From Thermogemmata fonticola (lineage in GTDB: Bacteria; Planctomycetota; Planctomycetia; Gemmatales; Gemmataceae), in NCBI RefSeq assembly GCF_013694095.1, contig NZ_JACEFB010000011.1, positions 1-64,000 of the forward strand: a DNA stretch of 64,000 nt, read 5' to 3'. Every line of letters starts with the position of its first letter. Position 1 is the first letter of the stretch. The position numbers were made by a program, and so were the translations under genes. Shown piece after piece: positions 12,287 through 26,651 of the stretch. The notes under the pieces were generated by a model. The model was not told the DNA's origin and ran no database searches. It saw nothing but the letters and a program-made list of their open reading frames with translations.

Positions 12287-13405
12287 TCACGAAGCCAGGG
12301 GTAAGGCAAAGGAGGGGGACGGCGGCGGGGTAGGCGGACGGGTGTCGATCAGTTCGTAGAAGACGTTGCGCTGACGCGGTTCCCAGCCGGCTTCCCGGAT
12401 CGCCCGGCGGATTTCTTCGAGCGTGAGGTAATAGACCGTCCCAGCGGAGGCCACCACGTTTTCCTCGATCATGAGGGACCCCATGTCGTTGGCACCGAAG
12501 AAGAGGGCGATCTGGCCGATCTTGCCCCCCTGCGTGACCCAGGAGGATTGGATGTTGGGGATGTTGTCGAGGTAGAGGCGGGCGATGGCCTGGGTGCGGA
12601 GGTATTCAAAGGCGCCGACTTCTGGGAAGTGGGCCATTTTGTGCCCCGGCTGGAGCGTCCAGCAGATGAAGGCGGTGAAGCCGCCGGTCTCGTCTTGCAG
12701 TTCGCGCAGGCGGGTGAGGTGTTCGATCCGCTCGGCTTCCGTCTCGATGTGGCCGAACATCATGGTGCAGGTCCCTTTGCCGCCCAGTTCGTGCCACACC
12801 CGGCAGACTTCCAGCCATTCCTGGGTCAGGGCTTTGCCTTTGGTCAGCTCTTTGCGGACGCGATCGACCAGGATTTCGCCACCGCCTCCCGGCAGGGAGC
12901 CGAGACCGGCAGCTTTCAGGCGGGCCAGCACCTCCCGCAGCGGCAGCTTGTTGATCTTGTGGAAGTGCCAAATCTCCGGCGGGCTGAACGCATGCAAATT
13001 GATCTGCGGATAGCGCGCCTTGATGTCCCGCAGCAGCTCCTCGTACCACTCCAGTTTGAGCTGCGGGTGCATGCCGCCCTGGAGCAGGATCTGGTCGCCG
13101 CCTAAAGCGATGGTCTCCTCGATCTTGCGGTACAATTCCTCGCGGGGCAGGACGTAGGCATCCGCATCGTGGGACTTGCGGTAGAAGGCGCAGAAGTCGC
13201 AGACCGCCGCGCAGATGTTCGTGTAGTTGATATTGCGGTCGATGTTGTAAGTGCGGTACGGTTCGGGATGGAGGCGCAGGCAGACGGCATGAGCCGCTTG
13301 GCCGAGGCGGATCAAATCGCGGCAGCGGAACAGTTCCAATCCTTCTTCCGGCGTCAGGCGATAGCCATCGACGGCTTTGCCGAGGATACGGTCGAGGTCG
13401 TTCAT
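12287..13405 (-). CDS. mqnC: Cyclic dehypoxanthinyl futalosine synthase (radical SAM)
   Basis: A step of the futalosine route to menaquinone: a radical SAM cyclisation of dehypoxanthine futalosine (372 aa). The 4Fe-4S motif is C65, C69 and C72 in ICAAVCDFCAFYR. Family blocks include NIDRNINYTNIC, GGDQILLQGGMHP, GGGEILVDRVR, TCTMMFGHIET and FFGANDMGSLMIEENVV. The last block, with DETGGFTAF, points to MqnC rather than MqnE. The ATG at 13405 overlaps the mqnA stop by 4 bp. The C-terminal tail is Pro-rich. Confidence 0.93.
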   Translation of the reverse strand: MNDLDRILGKAVDGYRLTPEEGLELFRCRDLIRLGQAAHAVCLRLHPEPYRTYNIDRNINYTNICAAVCDFCAFYRKSHDADAYVLPREELYRKIEETIALGGDQILLQGGMHPQLKLEWYEELLRDIKARYPQINLHAFSPPEIWHFHKINKLPLREVLARLKAAGLGSLPGGGGEILVDRVRKELTKGKALTQEWLEVCRVWHELGGKGTCTMMFGHIETEAERIEHLTRLRELQDETGGFTAFICWTLQPGHKMAHFPEVGAFEYLRTQAIARLYLDNIPNIQSSWVTQGGKIGQIALFFGANDMGSLMIEENVVASAGTVYYLTLEEIRRAIREAGWEPRQRNVFYELIDTRPPTPPPSPSFALPLAS

Positions 13406-14232
13406 GGCGCAGCTCCGGCGAAGGCCAGGGCGGGTAAGGAGGTTTGCAGCCGCCGTTCTTCCAGGGGCGGCGTCAGGCCGAGTTGGGCGGTCAGTTCCGC
13501 GAAGCGGCGCAGGCCGGCCAGTTCCCACGCTCCCAGGTCATAGCGGATGATATGGCTCAGGTAGCGGCGGCAGTAGCCGGCGTCCAGATGGAGCCGGGCG
13601 GCTTCCCGTTGAGCGATCAGTCCCAGGCGCGAGAGGCCGCGCTGCCGCGCCTGGAGGAACGGTTCGGCCACGTCCTCCAGAGGGATTTCCGGCCGCACCG
13701 CCCAAAGGGCATAAACCATCGGCAGGCCGGTCCAGTCGGTCCATTCCGTGCCCAGATCGTAGGCGTAGGGCCACCCCGGCAGGCAGGCGTGCATCGCCCG
13801 ATCGCCGATCAAAAGCACAGCGTCGGCCTCCACGTCCTCCACCGTGTGGTGCAGAGGCAGCGGCTGATACTCCGCCTCCACGCCCCAGCGCTCTTGCAGA
13901 AGCACGCGGACCAGAACAGCACTGGTGCGGGACCCTTCATCCAGAGCCACGCGGCGGATGTGCGGCCACTTGACCCGGCTGAAAAGCGTCACGCTGAGGA
14001 CCGGACCCCGCGAAGCGATGGCTATCCCCGGAATGAACGTGTAGTCCGGCGCGCGGAGAAACTCCACCACGGGAATCAAACCGATGTCCAGCGTCCCCGC
14101 GGCCATCGCATCGGCCAGGCGGCTTGGCACGTCCAGGATCAACTGCCAGGGAGGGACATAGCGGTCCAGCTCCTCGATCAGCGGACGGGCGTTAAGGTAG
14201 CTGACCGCCCCTACACGCACCTGTCGGGTCAT
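13402..14232 (-). CDS. mqnA: Chorismate dehydratase of the futalosine menaquinone pathway
   Basis: Converts chorismate to 3-enolpyruvylbenzoate, the entry step of the futalosine pathway (276 aa). It has a periplasmic-binding-protein-like fold. Visible family features are VGAVSYLNARPLIEEL at the N-terminus, DIGLIPVVEFL, DEGSRTSAVLVRVLL and ADAVLLIGDRAM. The ATG at 14232 has GGGGAG 9 nt upstream. The gene order mqnA-mqnC with an ATGA overlap supports an operon read leftward. The other mqn genes are not in this window. Confidence 0.93.
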   Translation of the reverse strand: MTRQVRVGAVSYLNARPLIEELDRYVPPWQLILDVPSRLADAMAAGTLDIGLIPVVEFLRAPDYTFIPGIAIASRGPVLSVTLFSRVKWPHIRRVALDEGSRTSAVLVRVLLQERWGVEAEYQPLPLHHTVEDVEADAVLLIGDRAMHACLPGWPYAYDLGTEWTDWTGLPMVYALWAVRPEIPLEDVAEPFLQARQRGLSRLGLIAQREAARLHLDAGYCRRYLSHIIRYDLGAWELAGLRRFAELTAQLGLTPPLEERRLQTSLPALAFAGAAP

Positions 14233-14398: not shown

Positions 14399-16378
14399 TC
14401 ACGGGCAGCCCGCTGGAGGACAGGGCGGACAAACCGGCACGCACACCGGGACGCACCGCTGCACGCACACCGTCACGGTGTACGGCTCCCAGCGGCAGGT
14501 CGTCACCGGCACCAAACGGCAGTGGCTTTCCGGTACCACTTTGCAGGTTGTGACAGGAACATAACGGATGCGTTCTTCACATTCCATACGGATGCGGCAC
14601 TGGCGGACCACACACTGCCGGGGTTCACAAACCAGGCGGCAAACCACTCGAGGAACATATCGCACGCAGTGTTGAGGAACCAATTCCGTTGTACAACGCG
14701 TCTCATAACGGACATGGTTTTCCTGGACCAGGCGGCAGACGGTATACGGGACCACCCGGCAGCGGCTCTCCAACACCGTGAAGCAACGGCGCCGCACCTC
14801 GTGGCGGACGTGATCCTCCCGGACCAGCTTGCAGACGGTGTACGGCACCAGCGCCTTGCGCACCTCCGGCACATAGGAGCAGCGCCGTTGCGTCACCAGG
14901 CGGACGCACGTCTCCGGCACCACCCGGCAAACGGTATAGGGCCGGTAGCATACCCTTTGTTCACAAACCGTAGAGCAGCGATAGCGCGTCTCCGTACGCA
15001 CCGCCGTCTCCGGAACCAGGCGGCATACCGTGTAAGGGATATAACACACCTTGACTTCAGGAACCAGAGAACAGCGGGTACGGGTCTCATAGCGGATGCA
15101 GTGTTGAGGAACCAGGCGGCAGACGGTGCGCGTACAAGGCCGCAGCTCCGTCCGGCAGACCTTGCGGCATACAGGAACCTGCACAGTGACGCATACAGGC
15201 TTGCACACCTGGCGACATTCACGGATGACACGACATTCTTCATGGGGAACCCAGATCGAGCGGCACACCACACGGCCCGGACATTGCACGAGCTGCTCTA
15301 CAATCGGACCGGGGCGGTAATAGGTCGTGCAGGTGCAGGGGTCAAATACGCATTCCCCAGGCAATTGCACACATTGCTTGACCACTGGACCCGGCACATA
15401 TTCCGACACCGTCACGAAACGCCCCGTGCATACCTTCTCCACACGTTCCACAATCTGCGGCTCGATGACATACTGAATCTGTGTCTGAGGGACATACTCG
15501 ATCACATCATGATACGTGGTGACCGGTACGTAAAAAGTCTCCGTCTCATAAACTGGCTTTAGGACCGTGTAAGGAATAGCAACCTGGTATTGTTCCGTCA
15601 CTGGACGATAATGTACAGAACGTTGCTCCCGATAATGCGTTTCCTGAATCGGCTTCCAAACAGTATAAGGCACCTGGACTGTGTAGGGTTCTACAACTTG
15701 TCTTTGGACGGTGTACGGCTGAGCGGCAATATGCTGCTCTTGAATAACTTTCGGCACAGTATAGGTGACGGGAATCTGGCACTCCTCGACCACGGGGCGC
15801 AGGACAGTGTAGCAGTGCTCGCGGTAATGGGTTTCCGCCACGGTGCGGTAGGTCGAGTAAGGAATGGCGACGACGTAGTCTTGGACCACCGTTCGCGGCA
15901 CCGTATAAGTTTCCTGGCGGTAGTGGGTCTCATAGACGGGGCGGAGGACGGAGTAGGGGACGGCCACCTGGAAGGTCCGCGTCACCGGTTTCCACACCGT
16001 AAAGGCTTGCTGCTGCCACTGGGTCTCGTAAACAGGCCGCTGCACGGTATATTGGTGGATCGTATCATAATGTTCCACCACGGGCCGTTGCACCACATAC
16101 TTCTGAGCTAGCAGTTGAGTTTCCTGGACTTGCCGCAAGATTGTGCAAGTCTGGACCTGATAGTGGGTCTCATACACAGGCCGGTAGCAGACCTGTTGAT
16201 GGTATTCCAGGATCGGTTGGTAATGCACGGTCAGGCCGCTGACCGGCGGCGCGCATTGCTCCGGCAGCAAACAGGGTTTGGGATAGCGGCACAAGCCCAG
16301 ATGCCCGGCCCAAGCCAGCGGTGCCGGCAGAAGCCATCCTCCAAGCGTCAGAAGGGCAGTGCAGAGCCAACGCTTCAT
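14399..16378 (-). CDS. Secreted YTV-repeat protein with Cys-rich second repeat block
   Basis: A protein of 659 aa with a signal peptide (MKRWLCTALLTLGG, cleavage after LAWA). Residues of about 45-300 are a run of YTV units containing phrases such as YTVQRPVYETQW and YRPVYETHYQ, the PF07639-like repeat known from planctomycetes. Residues of about 380-620 hold a different repeat of 32 aa beginning YTVCRLVPE and carrying regularly spaced cysteines. The protein ends in a Cys/Pro-rich tail. The family is thought to be extracellular or wall-associated; function unknown. The ATG at 16378 has GAGGGA upstream. An extension to 16465 is in frame but would precede the signal peptide. Confidence 0.9.
   Translation of the reverse strand: MKRWLCTALLTLGGWLLPAPLAWAGHLGLCRYPKPCLLPEQCAPPVSGLTVHYQPILEYHQQVCYRPVYETHYQVQTCTILRQVQETQLLAQKYVVQRPVVEHYDTIHQYTVQRPVYETQWQQQAFTVWKPVTRTFQVAVPYSVLRPVYETHYRQETYTVPRTVVQDYVVAIPYSTYRTVAETHYREHCYTVLRPVVEECQIPVTYTVPKVIQEQHIAAQPYTVQRQVVEPYTVQVPYTVWKPIQETHYREQRSVHYRPVTEQYQVAIPYTVLKPVYETETFYVPVTTYHDVIEYVPQTQIQYVIEPQIVERVEKVCTGRFVTVSEYVPGPVVKQCVQLPGECVFDPCTCTTYYRPGPIVEQLVQCPGRVVCRSIWVPHEECRVIRECRQVCKPVCVTVQVPVCRKVCRTELRPCTRTVCRLVPQHCIRYETRTRCSLVPEVKVCYIPYTVCRLVPETAVRTETRYRCSTVCEQRVCYRPYTVCRVVPETCVRLVTQRRCSYVPEVRKALVPYTVCKLVREDHVRHEVRRRCFTVLESRCRVVPYTVCRLVQENHVRYETRCTTELVPQHCVRYVPRVVCRLVCEPRQCVVRQCRIRMECEERIRYVPVTTCKVVPESHCRLVPVTTCRWEPYTVTVCVQRCVPVCVPVCPPCPPAGCP
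14480..15200 (-). repeat. 32-aa (96-bp) Cys-containing repeats inside the YTV protein
   Basis: About five imperfect units start at YTVC(R/K)LV. Each has a Val-Arg-x-Glu core, an RC pair near the middle and a VxY(x)P end. Boundaries are approximate. They differ from the upstream YTV units by their regular cysteines. Confidence 0.7.
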
Positions 16379-16809
16379 AATCGTGGTCCCTCGCATGCGG
16401 GTCCTTCGCAAGGGCGGCGAATAGCGCCAGGCGATGGAGTCCTCCTCTTCTGTCAGTGTGCGCAATGCGCGGAGAACAGGAAGGCCACAAGGCTTTCTGC
16501 CGCCGTTTCCTCAAGCCCAGAATGCCGCACATTCAATCTTCCCGGCGCATCCCATGCCAGCGGCTCAGAATAAAGAATTGCTCGAATCGGCGATAATGGA
16601 ATCATCGGCACTGTTCTTTGTCCTTGCAGAGGGCCTGTAGTTGATGCGAAGCGAAGGATCGGCAGAGTCGAAGATGAGGCGGCAGCGACGTTAAGGGGGC
16701 AGTTCGTCGCTGTGTGCCGGGAACGCTTCGGCCTGGGCAGGCAGGAGGTGCGGCCTGGGAGCGGAAGATTCGGCCTGGGTGAGGGACTTCAGGCCGTTGT
16801 GCCGAGGAT
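16379..16809. other. Intergenic, no gene seen
   Basis: 431 bp between the kinase-fusion stop and the YTV gene start; both genes read leftward. Small open frames here have no recognisable features. It presumably holds the YTV gene promoter, but no convincing hexamers were seen. Confidence 0.5.
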
Positions 16810-19116
16810 TCAGCCTTCGCTGTGGATTTGCTCGAAGCGCGGGGCGGCTTCAAGGAAGGCGGCCAGGAGGTGGGGGTCGAAGTGGTTTTGCAGGTCTTGG
16901 GAGAGGAGCTTGACGGCGCGAGCATGGGAGAGGGCAGGGCGGTAAGGCCGTCGGCTGCGTAGAGCTTCGTAGACGCTCACCAGACTGACCACGCGGGCGG
17001 AGAGAGGGATTTCGTGGCCTTTGAGCATATCTGGGTAGCCGCTGCCATCCCAGCGTTCGTGGTGGTGGCGGACAATTTCCGCGGCCAAGGGGAGGAAGGG
17101 CAGCTCGCTCCCCAGCTTGGCGGCGACGCTGAGCATCACTTCGGCGCCGACGGTGACGTGGGTTTGCACCACGGCGCTTTCTTCTTCGCTGAGTTTATCC
17201 GGCTTGATGAGTAATCCGCGGGGAATGGCCACCATGCCGATGTCGTAGATGGGGGCGATGGCGGCTAACAGTTCCAGGTAGGCATCGTCTTTGAGGCGGG
17301 TGTATTCGCCTTGATCGACGACAGCACCGGCCAGGGCGCGGACGTAACGGATGATGCGCCGCCAGTGGCCTTCGCTCACCAGGCTGGTTTCGGCCAGCAG
17401 ACGGGAGAAGGTCAGGGAGAGGGCCTCGGCAGGGGCGGCTCGCCGCAGGGCGGGAAGGGACGCGGGTTTGGCCGGCGCTTGCCGTTGGGTCAGGGCATTC
17501 GAGATGCGCTGGGTCGGCTGGCTGCTTTCGGAGCCGCTGCTTTGCGCCCGGCGCATGAGCAAGGCGCGGACGCGGGAGACGAACTCGCTCGGCTTGAACG
17601 GCTTGGCCAGGAAGTCGTCCGCCCCGGTGGTCGACAAGCCTCCGAGGGCTTCATCCGGCATCATGCCCGACATGAGGAGAACTTTGAGCCGGTCGCTGTC
17701 CCAGCCGGCGGAACGGACCTTGGCGATCAGCTCCGTGCCGCTCCAGCCCGGCAGATTGACATCGACGATCAACAAGTCCGGCGAGAAGCGGGCCAGCTCC
17801 TCGTAGGCGGATTCTGCATCGGCGGCTTCGCGCAGCTCGTAGCGGTCCTTGAGCAATTGGGTCATGAGCAGGCGGATGGAGTCTTCATCATCGACGATCA
17901 GGATGCGTTCGCGTTTGCTCGTGCGGGAAGCGGCCTCGCGGGAGAGGGTCGCGGCAGTATTGGGGAGCCAGAGGCAGAAGCCGGTGAGGGTGGACGCGAC
18001 GGCGCGGGCGGAGGGGAAGCGCTGATCCGGGTCGGTTTGCATCAGACGGGCGACCAAGTCGGAGACTTCCTGCGGCACTTCGGGGCGGAGTTGGTGGACC
18101 GGCGGCGGCGAGGTGGTGAGGCGGCGGTGCAAATCCTGCAACGGGTTCCCCGTTTCCGGATAGGGTTCCACCCCGGTCAAGGCCCAGTAGAGCGAAGCGC
18201 CGAGGCTGAAGAGGTCGGCCCGGCCATCGACATTGCGGGGATCGCGAGCCTGCTCGGGGGCCATGTAGCCGATCGTGCCCAGGAGCGTCCCCGGTTCGGT
18301 GACGTTGCGCATCGGCATGCGGGCCAGGCCGAAATCCAGCACCTTCGCTTGCCAATCCGGCGTCACCAGGATGTTGGAGGGTTTGATGTCGCGGTGGATC
18401 AAGCCGTGGCGGTGGGCTTCGGCCAAGGCTTCGGCCACCTGGCGGAACAGATCGCAGGCGCGGTGCGGCGCCAGCGGCCCTTTCTCCCGTACCAGCGTGT
18501 ACAGGTCCTGGCCGGGGATCAACTCCATGACGAAGTAATCGCGGTACATCGGCGTGGGGCCTGGCTGCTCCCAGCGCCCGGCGTCGAAACAGGCGACTAT
18601 GTTCGGATGCTGCAACCGGGCCACGGCCCGCGCTTCCGCGTAGAAGCGGTGGACCATCCGTTCGTTCCCATCCGAGGCCCGGCTCATGACCTTCACCGCC
18701 ACTTGCCGCCGCAGCGTGATGTGTTCCCCGCGGTAGACCGTCCCCATGCCGCCGTGGCCGAGCAGGTCCAGCAGCCGATAGGAACCCAGGAGCAACTCAT
18801 GCCCGTTCCCTTTGCGGATGGCTTCCATCTGGAAGCGGGTGATCAGATGCCGCTGGTGCAAGGCGTGCAGCAGTTCGTCGATCGTCAGGGCTTGTTCCAG
18901 GCGGTGGCGGTCGCTTTCGGGCAGCTCCTCCCACTCCTCGTGCAGGACGATGTGCTTGTCGAGCAGCCAGTGCAGCAGCGTTTGAGGCAGGGTGGGCGCT
19001 CCTCCTTCCACGTGCACTGTCGTGGCGGGCGAAGCGGGTGATTCGAAGAGGATCGAATCCGGGTATGGCGACATGCCGGGGGCGCTCCGACTTCTTCCGG
19101 TGGGAGACCAACTCAT
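16810..19116 (-). CDS. Ser/Thr protein kinase - receiver - HD-GYP fusion protein
   Basis: One 768-aa polypeptide combines three signalling modules. Residues of about 113-380 are a Hanks-type kinase (loop LGHGGMGTVYRG, K142, HRDIKPSN 241-248, DFG 261-263). Residues of about 403-522 are a response-regulator receiver (D409, D410, phospho-acceptor D452, K505). Residues of about 570-765 are HD-GYP-like: H584, H684-H686 and the HHERWDGSGYP block at 685-695 are present. The HD dyad itself reads Y624-D625, inside YDIGM where HDIGK is expected, so c-di-GMP hydrolysis may be lost or altered. No transmembrane segment is visible. There is no clear Shine-Dalgarno at the ATG of 19116, and an in-frame ATG at 19074 is an alternative. 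Confidence 0.93.
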   Translation of the reverse strand: MSWSPTGRSRSAPGMSPYPDSILFESPASPATTVHVEGGAPTLPQTLLHWLLDKHIVLHEEWEELPESDRHRLEQALTIDELLHALHQRHLITRFQMEAIRKGNGHELLLGSYRLLDLLGHGGMGTVYRGEHITLRRQVAVKVMSRASDGNERMVHRFYAEARAVARLQHPNIVACFDAGRWEQPGPTPMYRDYFVMELIPGQDLYTLVREKGPLAPHRACDLFRQVAEALAEAHRHGLIHRDIKPSNILVTPDWQAKVLDFGLARMPMRNVTEPGTLLGTIGYMAPEQARDPRNVDGRADLFSLGASLYWALTGVEPYPETGNPLQDLHRRLTTSPPPVHQLRPEVPQEVSDLVARLMQTDPDQRFPSARAVASTLTGFCLWLPNTAATLSREAASRTSKRERILIVDDEDSIRLLMTQLLKDRYELREAADAESAYEELARFSPDLLIVDVNLPGWSGTELIAKVRSAGWDSDRLKVLLMSGMMPDEALGGLSTTGADDFLAKPFKPSEFVSRVRALLMRRAQSSGSESSQPTQRISNALTQRQAPAKPASLPALRRAAPAEALSLTFSRLLAETSLVSEGHWRRIIRYVRALAGAVVDQGEYTRLKDDAYLELLAAIAPIYDIGMVAIPRGLLIKPDKLSEEESAVVQTHVTVGAEVMLSVAAKLGSELPFLPLAAEIVRHHHERWDGSGYPDMLKGHEIPLSARVVSLVSVYEALRSRRPYRPALSHARAVKLLSQDLQNHFDPHLLAAFLEAAPRFEQIHSEG

Positions 19117-19466
19117 GGCCGTATCACAATTTGGCTTACAGTTGGAGGAAAAACAAGCCGCGCAGCGGACGGAAAGTGCGGGGAGGGGCGAAAACGCTCG
19201 CAGATTTCACGCCGAGGTGAAATCCCGTGTCCGGCATCAGGCGGCGGCGTAAGAATCCTGGGAGATATTCGGCAAGCCGAGAAAAATTGGGCCGGGATAA
19301 ACAGCACGGGAAGGCAGGTTCCCTTCCCAGCGACCGGTCCAAGGACGAATACAGTCTGCACCGGGCGGAGGGACCGGACTGCTCCGGGCATCGAGTCCGA
19401 GGAACCGGACTGCTCCGGGAATCGAGTCCGAGGGCGGCAGAAATGACGGGGAGTACGGGGAGGCCG
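19117..19466. other. Intergenic with short direct repeats, no gene seen
   Basis: 350 bp between the kinase fusion and the metK stop, both leftward. It contains the 30-bp repeat pair at 19373-19433. No coding region was recognised. Confidence 0.5.
19373..19433. repeat. 30-bp direct repeat pair downstream of metK
   Basis: ACCGGACTGCTCCGGG-type units at 19373-19402 and 19404-19433 differ by one base. Between them AGTCCG-AGGAAC-CGGACT forms a short stem-loop. The position just after the metK stop would suit a transcript-end structure, but there is no T-tract. Confidence 0.7.
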
Positions 19467-20732
19467 TCAGACGCCGGCAGCCCGGCGGAGCGCCTCAGCC
19501 CGATCCGTTTTTTCCCACGTGAAGTCCGGCAGCTCCCGCCCGAAGTGGCCGTGGCAGGCGGTCTGCCGGTAGATCGGCCGGCGGAGTTTGAGTGTGTCAA
19601 TGATGCCTTGGGGCGTGAGGTGGAAGAATTCGCGGATCAGCTCGATGAGGCGCCCTTCGGCGATCTTGGCCGTGCCGTTGGTGTTCACCCAGATGTTGAG
19701 CGGGTCGGGGTAGCCGATAGCGTAGCTGAGCTGGACTTCGCATTCGCGGGCCAAGCCGGCAGCGACGATGTTTTTGGCGATGTAGCGGGCCATGTAAGCG
19801 GCACTGCGGTCGACTTTGGTGGGGTCTTTGCCGCTGAAGGCGCCGCCGCCGTGGCGGCCCCGACCGCCGTAGGTGTCCACGATGATCTTGCGCCCGGTCA
19901 GGCCGCTGTCCCCGTGCGGACCGCCGGTTAGGAAGCAGCCCGTCGGATTGATATGGCAGGCGATGTCTCCCGCTTCCAGCTTGGGCGGCTTGTCCCCCGG
20001 CGGAATCATGACGAACCGCCCGCGGATCAGGTCCTCCCGTTCCCGCCGCAAGACCGGCTCGATCAGCTCGTGGATGATCCGTTCGCGGGCCTCATCGGTG
20101 AAATAGTCCTTATTCTGGCGGCAGGTCATCACCTCGCGGGTATGCTGGGTGCTGAGCACAACCGTATGGATGCGGTGCGGAGTTCCGTCGGCGTTGTATT
20201 CGACCGTCACCTGGCTTTTGGCATCGGGCCGCAGCCAGGGCAGCCGACCGCTCCGCCGCAACTCCGCGTGATACTCCACCAGCCGGTGGGCCAAATGGAT
20301 CGGCAGCGGCATGAGGCTCTTCGTCTCGTTGCAGGCGAAGCCGAACATCATCCCCTGATCTCCCGCTCCGCCGCAATCCACCCCCTGGCTGATATGCGGA
20401 CTTTGTGCGTGGATGTGGCAGTCGATCTGGCACGACTCCGCCGTAAAGCCAATCTCTTCCCGCTCCGCCTCATTACGGGCCACGTAGCCGATCTCTCGGA
20501 TCACCTCCCGCACCAGACGGTCGATCGCTTCCCGTGTCAGGGGAGCCTGGGTGGTGATCTCCCCAGCCACCACGACCAGATTCGTCGTCACCAGGGTCTC
20601 ACACGCCACCCGGCTGTTCGGATCATGCTGCAAGCAGTAATCCAGCACGGCATCGGAAATCTGATCGGCTACCTTGTCCGGATGCCCCATCGACACTGAT
20701 TCACTGGTAAACAGATAACGCTCATCCGACAC
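19467..20732 (-). CDS. metK: S-adenosylmethionine synthetase
   Basis: Makes S-adenosylmethionine from ATP and methionine. The product is 421 aa from the chosen start. It shows [22 protein letters not shown] near the N-terminus, the [12 protein letters not shown] block, [14 protein letters not shown], the P-loop-like [16 protein letters not shown] and AYAIGxP (here [11 protein letters not shown]). No ATG fits the family N-terminus; the GTG at 20732, leading into [10 protein letters not shown], is preferred, with GGGGG 7-8 nt upstream. A second GTG (20738) and an upstream TTG (20771) are also in frame. There is no SAM riboswitch that I could recognise upstream. Confidence 0.94.
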
Positions 20733-21254
20733 GATCACGCCCCCAACAACAACGGCCTCCCTGGACCGCAAAACCCGGCGACCCCGCTTTTGGTACGCTC
20801 GTTATACACAAACACCCTGCCCAAGGCCAAGTGCCCGGCGGATCCTTCCCCGCACTCGCGCCCCATGCGCCCCGCCTGCCTTTGTTCCCGCAGGCTAGCG
20901 GGCTTCCCCTCCATCCGTTCCCGCAGATCAGGAGGCCTGACTCCCCTTCTTCCCCCCGACTGTCGAAGCGCTGACGCTCCGCGGGGGATTCCACGTGTGC
21001 CGTCGGCCCAATCTCCTCCCTTTCCCATGATACGGCTCTCCAAATGAAATGATACGGCTCCCGCCCTCTCTTCAGGAGCGAGAGAATCAGGAGCGAGAGA
21101 AGCGAGAGCGAGGACGGAGGGAGTGGAAAAGCGGAAATCGATGGCCAGACGGTCTGATCCGGAATCCCCGCCCATTTCCTGTCCCGCATCCGGTTCTGGG
21201 CAAATACGGGGGATGCCGGTCCGGCCGGGGTCACTTTCCAGCGACAGGAAGATG
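20733..21254. other. Intergenic with purine-rich short repeats, no gene seen
   Basis: 522 bp. ATGATACGGCTC occurs at 21027-21038 and 21049-21060. TCAGGAGCGAGAGA occurs at 21072-21085 and 21087-21100. Near 21230-21280 there are two related GTCACTTTCC-GCGAC segments, the second running into the end of the next gene. The open frames here lack protein features. Confidence 0.55.
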
Positions 21255-24776: not shown

Positions 24777-26063
24777 TCACGGACGGCGGGGCAGAAGTTG
24801 CGGCAGAGCGCGGTAGAGGTTCCAACTCAGGCGAAGCAGCTTGCAGAAACGGCTGGGTTCGTCCAGGGCGGCTTCCACCGCCGGATCGGGTCTTTCTGGC
24901 GATGTGCCGTGGGAGCACGCATTGCGCACCCATTGCACTTGCCGCAAGGTGGCCTTGTATTCTTCATCCAAGCCAGCATAGTTGAACAGATATTCTTCAG
25001 CATTCTTCCGGCTGTCATAACGGGATGTACTCTTATAGCCAAAAACCAGGCGACATGTACGTATGAGAATCGCTTCATATGTCAAGATTATAGCATGGAG
25101 ATAATTCTGATGTTTCAGTGCTTCCTGCGCATTGGCATAGTACCATTCGTCATCATAATGCCGGCTGGAGAGGAAGTTGCGTAGTTGCTGCTGGATGATC
25201 GCGGTGAGTGCCGGGCTGGCATGGCGGGACTGGCTGAGCCGATCGATGAGGTCTTGGATTTGGGTTCGCGCACGGGAAAGCTGATTGGTGTTTTCCAGGA
25301 ACCAGACCTGCTCGGCGAGTTGCTGGTCCTCCTCATTCTGAAGGAACTGCTGGAGGAGTTGCTGGTAGTTGCCGGTCAGGTGGAAGACGGCCATCGCCTC
25401 GGTCAGGCCCTGCAATTCCTGGCAGAACGAGAGGCAGGCCACCGGCGTCTGATTCAGGGCATCCCGCGCCTCGAACACCCCGCTGTAATAGGAGACGGAA
25501 CGGATGTCATGCGTCCAGCGCATGAGGGTAAGCACATGGGTGGCCAGCGTCGGCAGATGGCGGAAGCCGTGGCTGATGTCCAACACCACTTCGCTTTTCT
25601 CCGGCACCGCCTTCAGTAACACCTCCGCGAGCCGCTCCTGATCGAACGGCTCGATCAGATGCAAGGAGACCTGAGGCTGCTTATCGACCCCATATTGATT
25701 AATGAGGCTTTCCCAATGAGTGAGTATATCTTGATTGATAGTCTTAGATATGACATGATCATCGATTCTTATATATTCTTCTTCCAATTGATTTTGCACA
25801 GAATTATCGAGGAGCCGATACAACTCCGACCAGAGGGACGCGTTGGTACCTAGAATGATCCACCGTTCGACTTTTTTCTGGAGGCCGTTGATCAGGTAAT
25901 CGAGGAGGGCCAAGCCGAAGAGGGAGGTAGCGCGGGTGAACGATGAACCGGGGGAGGAAGGGGGCGGATCGAAGCGATAGGTGGTCTGCTCGTATTGGGA
26001 ACGGGGATTGTGGGGATCGCGTTTGCGGCCCACGCCGAGGAAACTGATGAGGGTCGTCGCCAT
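24777..26063 (-). CDS. CARF-HEPN protein of the Csx1/Csx2 (TM1812) family
   Basis: A CRISPR-associated-type protein of 428 aa. The N-terminal Rossmann/CARF half starts TTLISFLGVG with QTTYRF at 26-31 and WIILGTNASLW at 68-78. The DxTHG signature appears as LDISHGFRHLP (161-171). The C-terminal half is helical and ends in a HEPN RxxxxH motif, R380-NACS-H385. Family members are ribonucleases switched on by cyclic oligoadenylate made by type III complexes. No cas10, csm/cmr, cas6 or array is in the window, so it is an orphan here. AGGAGT lies 7-8 nt before the ATG at 26063. Part of the gene is strikingly AT-richer than its neighbours. Confidence 0.85.
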   Translation of the reverse strand: MATTLISFLGVGRKRDPHNPRSQYEQTTYRFDPPPSSPGSSFTRATSLFGLALLDYLINGLQKKVERWIILGTNASLWSELYRLLDNSVQNQLEEEYIRIDDHVISKTINQDILTHWESLINQYGVDKQPQVSLHLIEPFDQERLAEVLLKAVPEKSEVVLDISHGFRHLPTLATHVLTLMRWTHDIRSVSYYSGVFEARDALNQTPVACLSFCQELQGLTEAMAVFHLTGNYQQLLQQFLQNEEDQQLAEQVWFLENTNQLSRARTQIQDLIDRLSQSRHASPALTAIIQQQLRNFLSSRHYDDEWYYANAQEALKHQNYLHAIILTYEAILIRTCRLVFGYKSTSRYDSRKNAEEYLFNYAGLDEEYKATLRQVQWVRNACSHGTSPERPDPAVEAALDEPSRFCKLLRLSWNLYRALPQLLPRRP

Positions 26064-26651
26064 AGGGTCAACTCCTGGGATGCAGCGCTGGGGCGGGGAA
26101 GCTCTGCGTTGTCGGTCGATGCTTCCGCGGTGAGGGATGCGGATATTTTCCGGTATCATATTGGCACGATTAGTGATGACCTCTCTCCTGCCGCAGTTTG
26201 GGAAGCCGTGGGGTCGGCAACTCCTTTCCCAAAAAACGGCTGCCATTACCCAGAATTACGTTGAGACGCACCACGGTATGACACCGATTCGCGCCCCGCT
26301 GTTTCCTGCCCAGCTCCTGAGCAAAATTGCCCGCGAGCGGCCCACGCCTTGCGGCAATCGCGGCCTCCGCCAGGCGAACATGGCCAGGGAGAGGTTATCC
26401 GCCGGGCTAGGGTATACTGCCAGTTTACCCCAACGGCAGGTACGGACAAAGCAAAATCTGCCTCAGCGATAGCCGAAGTGGATGAGCGTCACGCCCAAAT
26501 GTTGGTTTGTTCCAGCGTACCGCCTGGAGGAGCGGCGTAGTTGCTGCTTCATTTCCCTCGCGGAAACGAAGGACTTGCGAAGAGCCGCCCGTTGTTTACC
26601 ATAAAGTCTCAATGCTGGGGGGAAAGGTGAGGTTCGAGGGAGGGGCGGCCC
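26064..26651. other. Divergent intergenic region, no gene seen
   Basis: 588 bp between the CARF-HEPN gene (leftward) and the Kelch gene (rightward). It has some AT-rich segments around 26140-26180 and must contain promoters for both, but I could not assign hexamers with confidence. No CRISPR repeats are present. Confidence 0.5.

Follow-up and report, generated by a model that had tools for sequence, protein, structure and literature searches.

The gene at 16810..19116 of the window (the whole stretch of 64,000 nucleotides that was analysed) encodes a 768-residue protein in which a Hanks-type Ser/Thr kinase and a receiver (REC) domain are joined to a degenerate HD-GYP domain that very probably no longer hydrolyses c-di-GMP, and the degeneration is shared by a conserved clade of Gemmataceae proteins. 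We give an even chance to the explanation that this pseudo-HD-GYP is a former hydrolase that now serves as a non-hydrolysing c-di-GMP-binding (or partner-binding) module on the kinase. The features of the locus are listed below.

16810..19116, minus strand: coding sequence of 768 residues with an ATG start, in the order N-terminal helical region, Ser/Thr kinase, REC, degenerate HD-GYP
18801..18996, minus strand: N-terminal helical region before the kinase, residues about 41-105 (AlphaFold2 pLDDT 89-96; aligned in the clade)
18004..18783, minus strand: Hanks-type kinase domain, residues about 112-371 (PF00069; PknB fold match; K142, HRD, N248, DFG)
17572..17907, minus strand: receiver domain, residues about 404-515 (PF00072; D452, S483, K505)
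17449..17535, minus strand: disordered REC-HD linker, residues about 528-556 (pLDDT <50), standing where canonical paralogues have a 48-residue coiled-coil-like helix
16813..17430, minus strand: degenerate HD-GYP domain, residues 563-768 (PF13487; model pLDDT 94.5)
17242..17247, minus strand: Y624-D625 (YD instead of HD), followed by M628 instead of K
17032..17064, minus strand: intact HHERWDGSGYP, residues 685-695
16975..16977, minus strand: S714 instead of the metal ligand Asp (equivalent to D305 of PmGH)
19467..20771, minus strand: metK (S-adenosylmethionine synthetase), the upstream neighbour

The sequence-only reading of this gene had placed a kinase, a receiver and an HD-GYP domain in one chain, and Pfam bears this out, with matches to Pkinase (112-371, E 4.5e-46), Response_reg (404-515, 2.8e-20) and HD_5 (592-749, 4e-27) whose coordinates run one lower than the numbering of the 768-residue protein. 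The catalytic set of the kinase is complete (K142, HRD at 241-243, N248 and DFG at 261-263) and the receiver has the phospho-acceptor D452 together with S483 and K505; K142, HRD, DFG, D452 and K505 are as that reading had them. AlphaFold2 predicted three confident domains and a small helical region before the kinase (residues about 41-105) that has no Pfam match, with low confidence in residues 1-36 and in the linkers 385-399 and 528-556. The kinase model resembles the PknB fold (TM 0.89 over the target), and the HD domain, modelled alone, gave Z scores of 27.7 to 4r8z (PA4781), 25.1 to 4mcw (PmGH) and 20.9 to 9rbz (DvhD). Because these models match PknB and the HD-GYPs of PA4781 and PmGH, and the domain order recurs in homologues, the architecture is not a product of chance. 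Against the NosR family of NCBIfam (NF053512) the protein scores 121.5 bits, below the curated cut-off of 400 bits.

The active site was mapped onto PmGH, in which the metal ligands are E185, H189, H221, D222, H250, H276, H277 and D305 and in which K225 and D183 are likewise essential (PMC4159591). The substitutions H221A, K225A and D183A abolish the activity of PmGH, and alanine substitutions in GYP, R314 and K317 have little effect on it (PMC4159591). In the complex of PmGH with c-di-GMP, where the bound nucleotide was seen with the G-site iron only, Y285 of the GYP motif contacts the phosphate and R314/K317 the guanine (PMC4159591). Aligned with our protein, E185 falls on V580, H189 on H584, H221 on Y624, D222 on D625, H250 on H653, H276 on H685, H277 on H686, D305 on S714, K225 on M628 and D183 on S578, with Y285, R314 and K317 falling on Y694, R723 and R726. 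We take D222, H250, H276 and H277 to form the G site of PmGH, an assignment made from the geometry given in the PmGH paper and from general knowledge of the HD superfamily. Five residues of catalysis or metal binding are lost in the window protein (the equivalents of E185, D183, H221, K225 and D305), and with Y624, M628, S714 and V580 both the full metal-ligand set (H...HD...H...HH...D) and the catalytic Lys are broken; by the same mapping the residues of the nucleotide pocket are retained. Loss of the E185 equivalent alone does not imply inactivity, because a Y/F subfamily of HD-GYPs lacks this residue and the E185A and D305A forms of PmGH retain some activity (PMC4159591). From the combined loss of the H221, K225 and D183 equivalents, we strongly infer that hydrolysis of c-di-GMP by this domain is very unlikely.

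H584, Y624-D625, M628 and GYP (693-695) all lie exactly where the sequence-only reading had them. Its HHExxxGxGYP motif is present but was written short of the full canonical HHExxDGxGYP (685-695), and it named the changes at Y624 and M628 correctly while overlooking those at V580, S714 and S578. Its suggestion that the output is binding or signalling rather than hydrolysis gains support from the five lost PmGH equivalents and from the conservation of the variant in the clade.

In two trees, one built from the receiver and HD domains and the other from the kinase through to the HD domain with the trait columns removed, the window protein fell into a single clade apart from the canonical proteins (SH-aLRT 100; 41 and 40 rows). 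Counting two HD-only fragments, the sampled members represent 31 genomes and 6 genera. E580, K628 and D714 are found in none of the 40 members of this degenerate clade, as opposed to 27, 33 and all of the 38 canonical proteins, respectively. H584 is kept in 9/40 degenerate versus 36/38 canonical proteins and H624 in 14/40 versus 36/38, whereas D625, H653, HHE and DGxGYP are found in every protein of both groups (40/40 and 38/38). Invariant in the degenerate clade are D625, H653, H685, H686, E687, D690, G691, G693, Y694 and P695, and the pocket residues defined by the PmGH mapping are equally well kept (K638, Y694, L719 and R726 in 40/40, R723 in 39/40). The catalytic residues of the kinase (Lys, HRD, Asn, DFG) are likewise present in all 40 members, and the receiver retains D452 in 37 and K505 in 38 of them.

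The histidine of the HD dyad has been lost in 26 of the 40 degenerate proteins, where position 624 is Tyr in 23, His in 14, Phe in 2 and Cys in 1, and parsimony requires a switch between His and a non-His residue no fewer than three times over the tree. The missing metal-binding histidine had been taken as the key event, but 14 of the 40 clade members keep HD and yet lack E580, K628 and D714; these members are degenerate with an intact HD, so the clade is not defined by the loss of that histidine. YD is one recurrent step of a wider inactivation and not a lone mutation. A lone mutation or sequencing error as its origin was ruled out, since YD is found in 23/40 clade members and in the sister species. 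The homologues thus answer the check proposed earlier: YD is conserved in its own subclade, the domain order recurs, and the clade members with an intact HD share the degeneration. In two proteins of the canonical clade KD stands in place of HD. The loci L117 (1162-3645) and L118 (1086-3551), from the other family of Gemmatales, encode kinase-REC-HD-GYP proteins with KD and otherwise canonical ligands.

The fusion of the three domains had been regarded as unusual in itself, which did not hold. An HD-GYP-domain match (E 1e-10) was obtained in 93 of the 95 genomes of Gemmataceae, the family of the window, full kinase-REC-HD-GYP proteins were found in both sampled families of Gemmatales, and active-looking HD-GYPs occur on such fusions in most of the genera sampled. 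That the fusion is unique to the window protein was therefore ruled out, and within the sampled genomes it looks restricted to Gemmatales. In the wider class the best matches lay in open frames of mostly 350-550 residues, those examined lacked a kinase, and among the 80 matches listed from species genomes a kinase was present in five, all of them titled as planctomycetes. Named records among the homologues include an uncultured Gemmata and a Fimbriiglobus. Plasmids yielded no relatives beyond short kinase or other partial matches, and no paper on the kinase-REC-HD-GYP fusion was found in the open-access literature searched.

Sequence conservation, compared between the two groups, points to reuse of the domain and not to decay. 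Of 59 HD positions conserved in the canonical proteins, 41 persist in 36 or more of the 40 degenerate members and five (R577, K628, D633, F674 and D714) are lost almost outright. The mean column entropy is 1.26 in the degenerate clade versus 1.42 in the canonical proteins for the HD domain, and 0.88 versus 1.45 for the kinase. In 37/40 degenerate members position 584 or 624 is aromatic, usually only one of the two, as if one aromatic ring filled the vacated metal site; in the canonical proteins these positions are occupied by His, Arg or Lys. R633 accompanies Y624 in 20 of 23 cases, and both counts of co-occurring residues are inflated by the kinship of the clade members. The REC-HD linker is 48 residues long and coiled-coil-like in 36/38 canonical proteins, and in the degenerate clade it varies from 36 to 70 residues. 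Since the linker of the clade is so variable and that of the window protein falls below a pLDDT of 50, the rigid REC-HD helix was thus given up together with catalysis.

Adjacency of metK to the orthologous gene is kept at several loci in three genera. A terminator-like stem-loop (19307-19329, minus strand; a consensus match only) lies between metK and the kinase gene and may speak against an operon of the two. No SAM riboswitch or other Rfam element near metK reached the gathering threshold in the window, and no cognate histidine kinase gene was found among the neighbours scanned. In a sister species (G073) the order is metK, codons 543-768 of the orthologous gene only, and the YTV protein; the pseudo-HD-GYP fragment (L051 3632-4402) has lost kinase and receiver by deletion, and the rest of that genome has no copy of them (best match 43% identity). 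The fragment does not open with an ATG, and translation from the TTG that it has instead would yield 195 residues. Between the window and G073 the HD part shows a dN of 0.08 and a dS of 1.4-1.8, the latter near saturation. In another genome (G023, L134 1357-3604) the pseudo-HD-GYP is out of frame with kinase-REC. Both the G073 truncation and the G023 frame change could be assembly faults, the latter being either a real split or an assembly indel. Also in the window are a long YTV-repeat protein rich in Tyr, Cys and Val (14399-16465, minus strand), which lies downstream of the locus in G073 as well, a CRISPR-associated TM1812-family protein (TIGR02221, DxTHG motif; 24777-26246, minus strand) a few kilobases away, and an MqnC and a menaquinone-biosynthesis (VitK2_biosynth) protein of the futalosine pathway (12287-14232, minus strand), the reading frames of which overlap by about 127 bases as called.

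Because the single GGDEF protein of the window genome looks like an active REC-GGDEF cyclase, with RxxD (RGSD) followed by GGEEF, and the genome also encodes one canonical HD-GYP, an FHA-GAF-HD-GYP protein (L137 2002-3594, minus strand), c-di-GMP is probably both made and broken down in this organism. The FHA domain, a reader of phospho-Thr, hints at a link to Ser/Thr kinases. An EAL domain gave no match in this genome, PilZ gave one weak match, and a canonical kinase-REC-HD-GYP paralogue is absent. Another degenerate HD-GYP (L138 1582-3183, plus strand), with ADIG for HDIG and HHERPDGSGYP kept, had no kinase or receiver matches.

Under our preferred explanation, the HD-GYP ancestor would have been a c-di-GMP phosphodiesterase, a state presumably still seen in the canonical paralogues, and the residues forming the catalytic part of the metal centre would have disappeared in one Gemmataceae clade. 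D625, H653, H685 and H686, probably the peripheral G metal site, would have been kept along with the GYP-loop tyrosine and the guanine-contact arginines, and the domain would most likely bind, but not cut, c-di-GMP or a related nucleotide. Its role may be that of an input or recruitment module on a flexible tether, serving the kinase, which would be the conserved catalytic output; REC would add a phospho-Asp input. Retained metal, nucleotide binding and control of the kinase we only infer. Binding of c-di-GMP is preferred because the retained set includes the c-di-GMP contacts of the PmGH complex, which held the G-site iron only. Against this explanation, the GYP and HH residues may have been kept solely for folding or protein contacts, tight allosteric control of a kinase would more naturally call for a rigid linker than for a flexible one, and in G073 the pseudo-HD-GYP frame stands alone, which means that the three parts need not always be combined. 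More tentatively, and at less than even confidence, the clade could be a family of c-di-GMP-responsive Ser/Thr kinases in which an HD-GYP turned receptor, with one metal site kept, sets the kinase output. If true, one protein family would show the passage from second-messenger enzyme to sensor, with active-looking paralogues persisting in some of the same genomes, and c-di-GMP would be connected directly to Ser/Thr phosphorylation in Gemmataceae, in which Ser/Thr kinases number about 100 or more (PMC11032199). The graded losses across the clade provide ready natural variants for testing.

The chief rival, which we consider rather unlikely, is that the pseudo-HD-GYP is a protein-interaction scaffold that binds and inhibits or activates the REC-GGDEF or the FHA-GAF-HD-GYP protein by a route other than the nucleotide. 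HnoD suppresses HnoB in this manner by direct interaction (PMC6335343), the degenerate NosR of Burkholderia is proposed to act likewise (PMC12570481), and a review ties the GYP motif, invariant in the degenerate clade, to GGDEF binding (PMC8177086); a flexible tether would suit recruitment, and the genome offers one cyclase and one FHA-bearing canonical HD-GYP as partners. However, the strict retention of D625, H653, H685, H686 and the guanine-contact arginines exceeds the needs of a surface scaffold, and the conserved neighbour is metK, not a partner gene. It is improbable that the remaining ligands hold one metal with which a different or slow reaction is still catalysed: those four ligands are invariant and the HD superfamily includes one-metal members with other chemistries (PMC8177086), but the equivalents of H221, K225 and D183, none of which PmGH can do without (PMC4159591), are gone, and the same review states that every HD-GYP phosphodiesterase reported to date is di- or trinuclear. 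We hold it least probable of all that the HD-GYP is a functionless vestige on an otherwise working kinase. The partial gene losses (the HD part without an ATG in G073, the HD part out of frame with kinase-REC in G023) and the lack of a canonical paralogue in the window genome would fit decay, but the HD column entropy is as low as in the canonical proteins, most of the canonical-conserved positions are kept, and dN is far below dS between the window and G073.

Regulators with an inactive HD-GYP have been described before, one of them with Tyr in place of His. In Pseudomonas aeruginosa, PA2572 (REC-YN-GYP) resembles the window protein in having a receiver and an HD-GYP with Tyr at the HD histidine, and it is regulatory although its c-di-GMP phosphodiesterase activity is undetectable (PMC3411652); it lacks a kinase and has lost the Asp too (YN versus YD). 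DvhD of Desulfovibrio vulgaris is a proven non-hydrolysing HD-GYP and c-di-GMP receptor with a solved bound structure (PMC13090378), which is among the top fold matches of our HD domain. Unlike the window protein, DvhD is a membrane PAS-HD-GYP that has neither kinase nor REC, in which HD has become SQ, HH is lost as well and binding is metal-free, while D625, H653 and HH are invariant in our clade. HnoD of Shewanella oneidensis, which has no phosphodiesterase activity (PMC6335343), and NosR are, like the window protein, response regulators (REC-degenerate HD-GYP) with an inactive or probably inactive HD-GYP, but they have no kinase, HnoD binds a phosphodiesterase, and the NosR motif is HG-GTP. 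PmGH and PA4781 share the fold and an HHExxDGxG[YF]P-type motif with the window domain, but are active enzymes with intact metal ligands and catalytic Lys. The canonical Gemmatales paralogues, nearest relatives of the degenerate clade, have the same domain order and differ in mostly keeping the metal ligands and K628 and in their rigid 48-residue REC-HD helix. Overall, what appears new is a conserved clade whose Hanks kinases carry an inactive HD-GYP and whose sister family in related organisms looks active.
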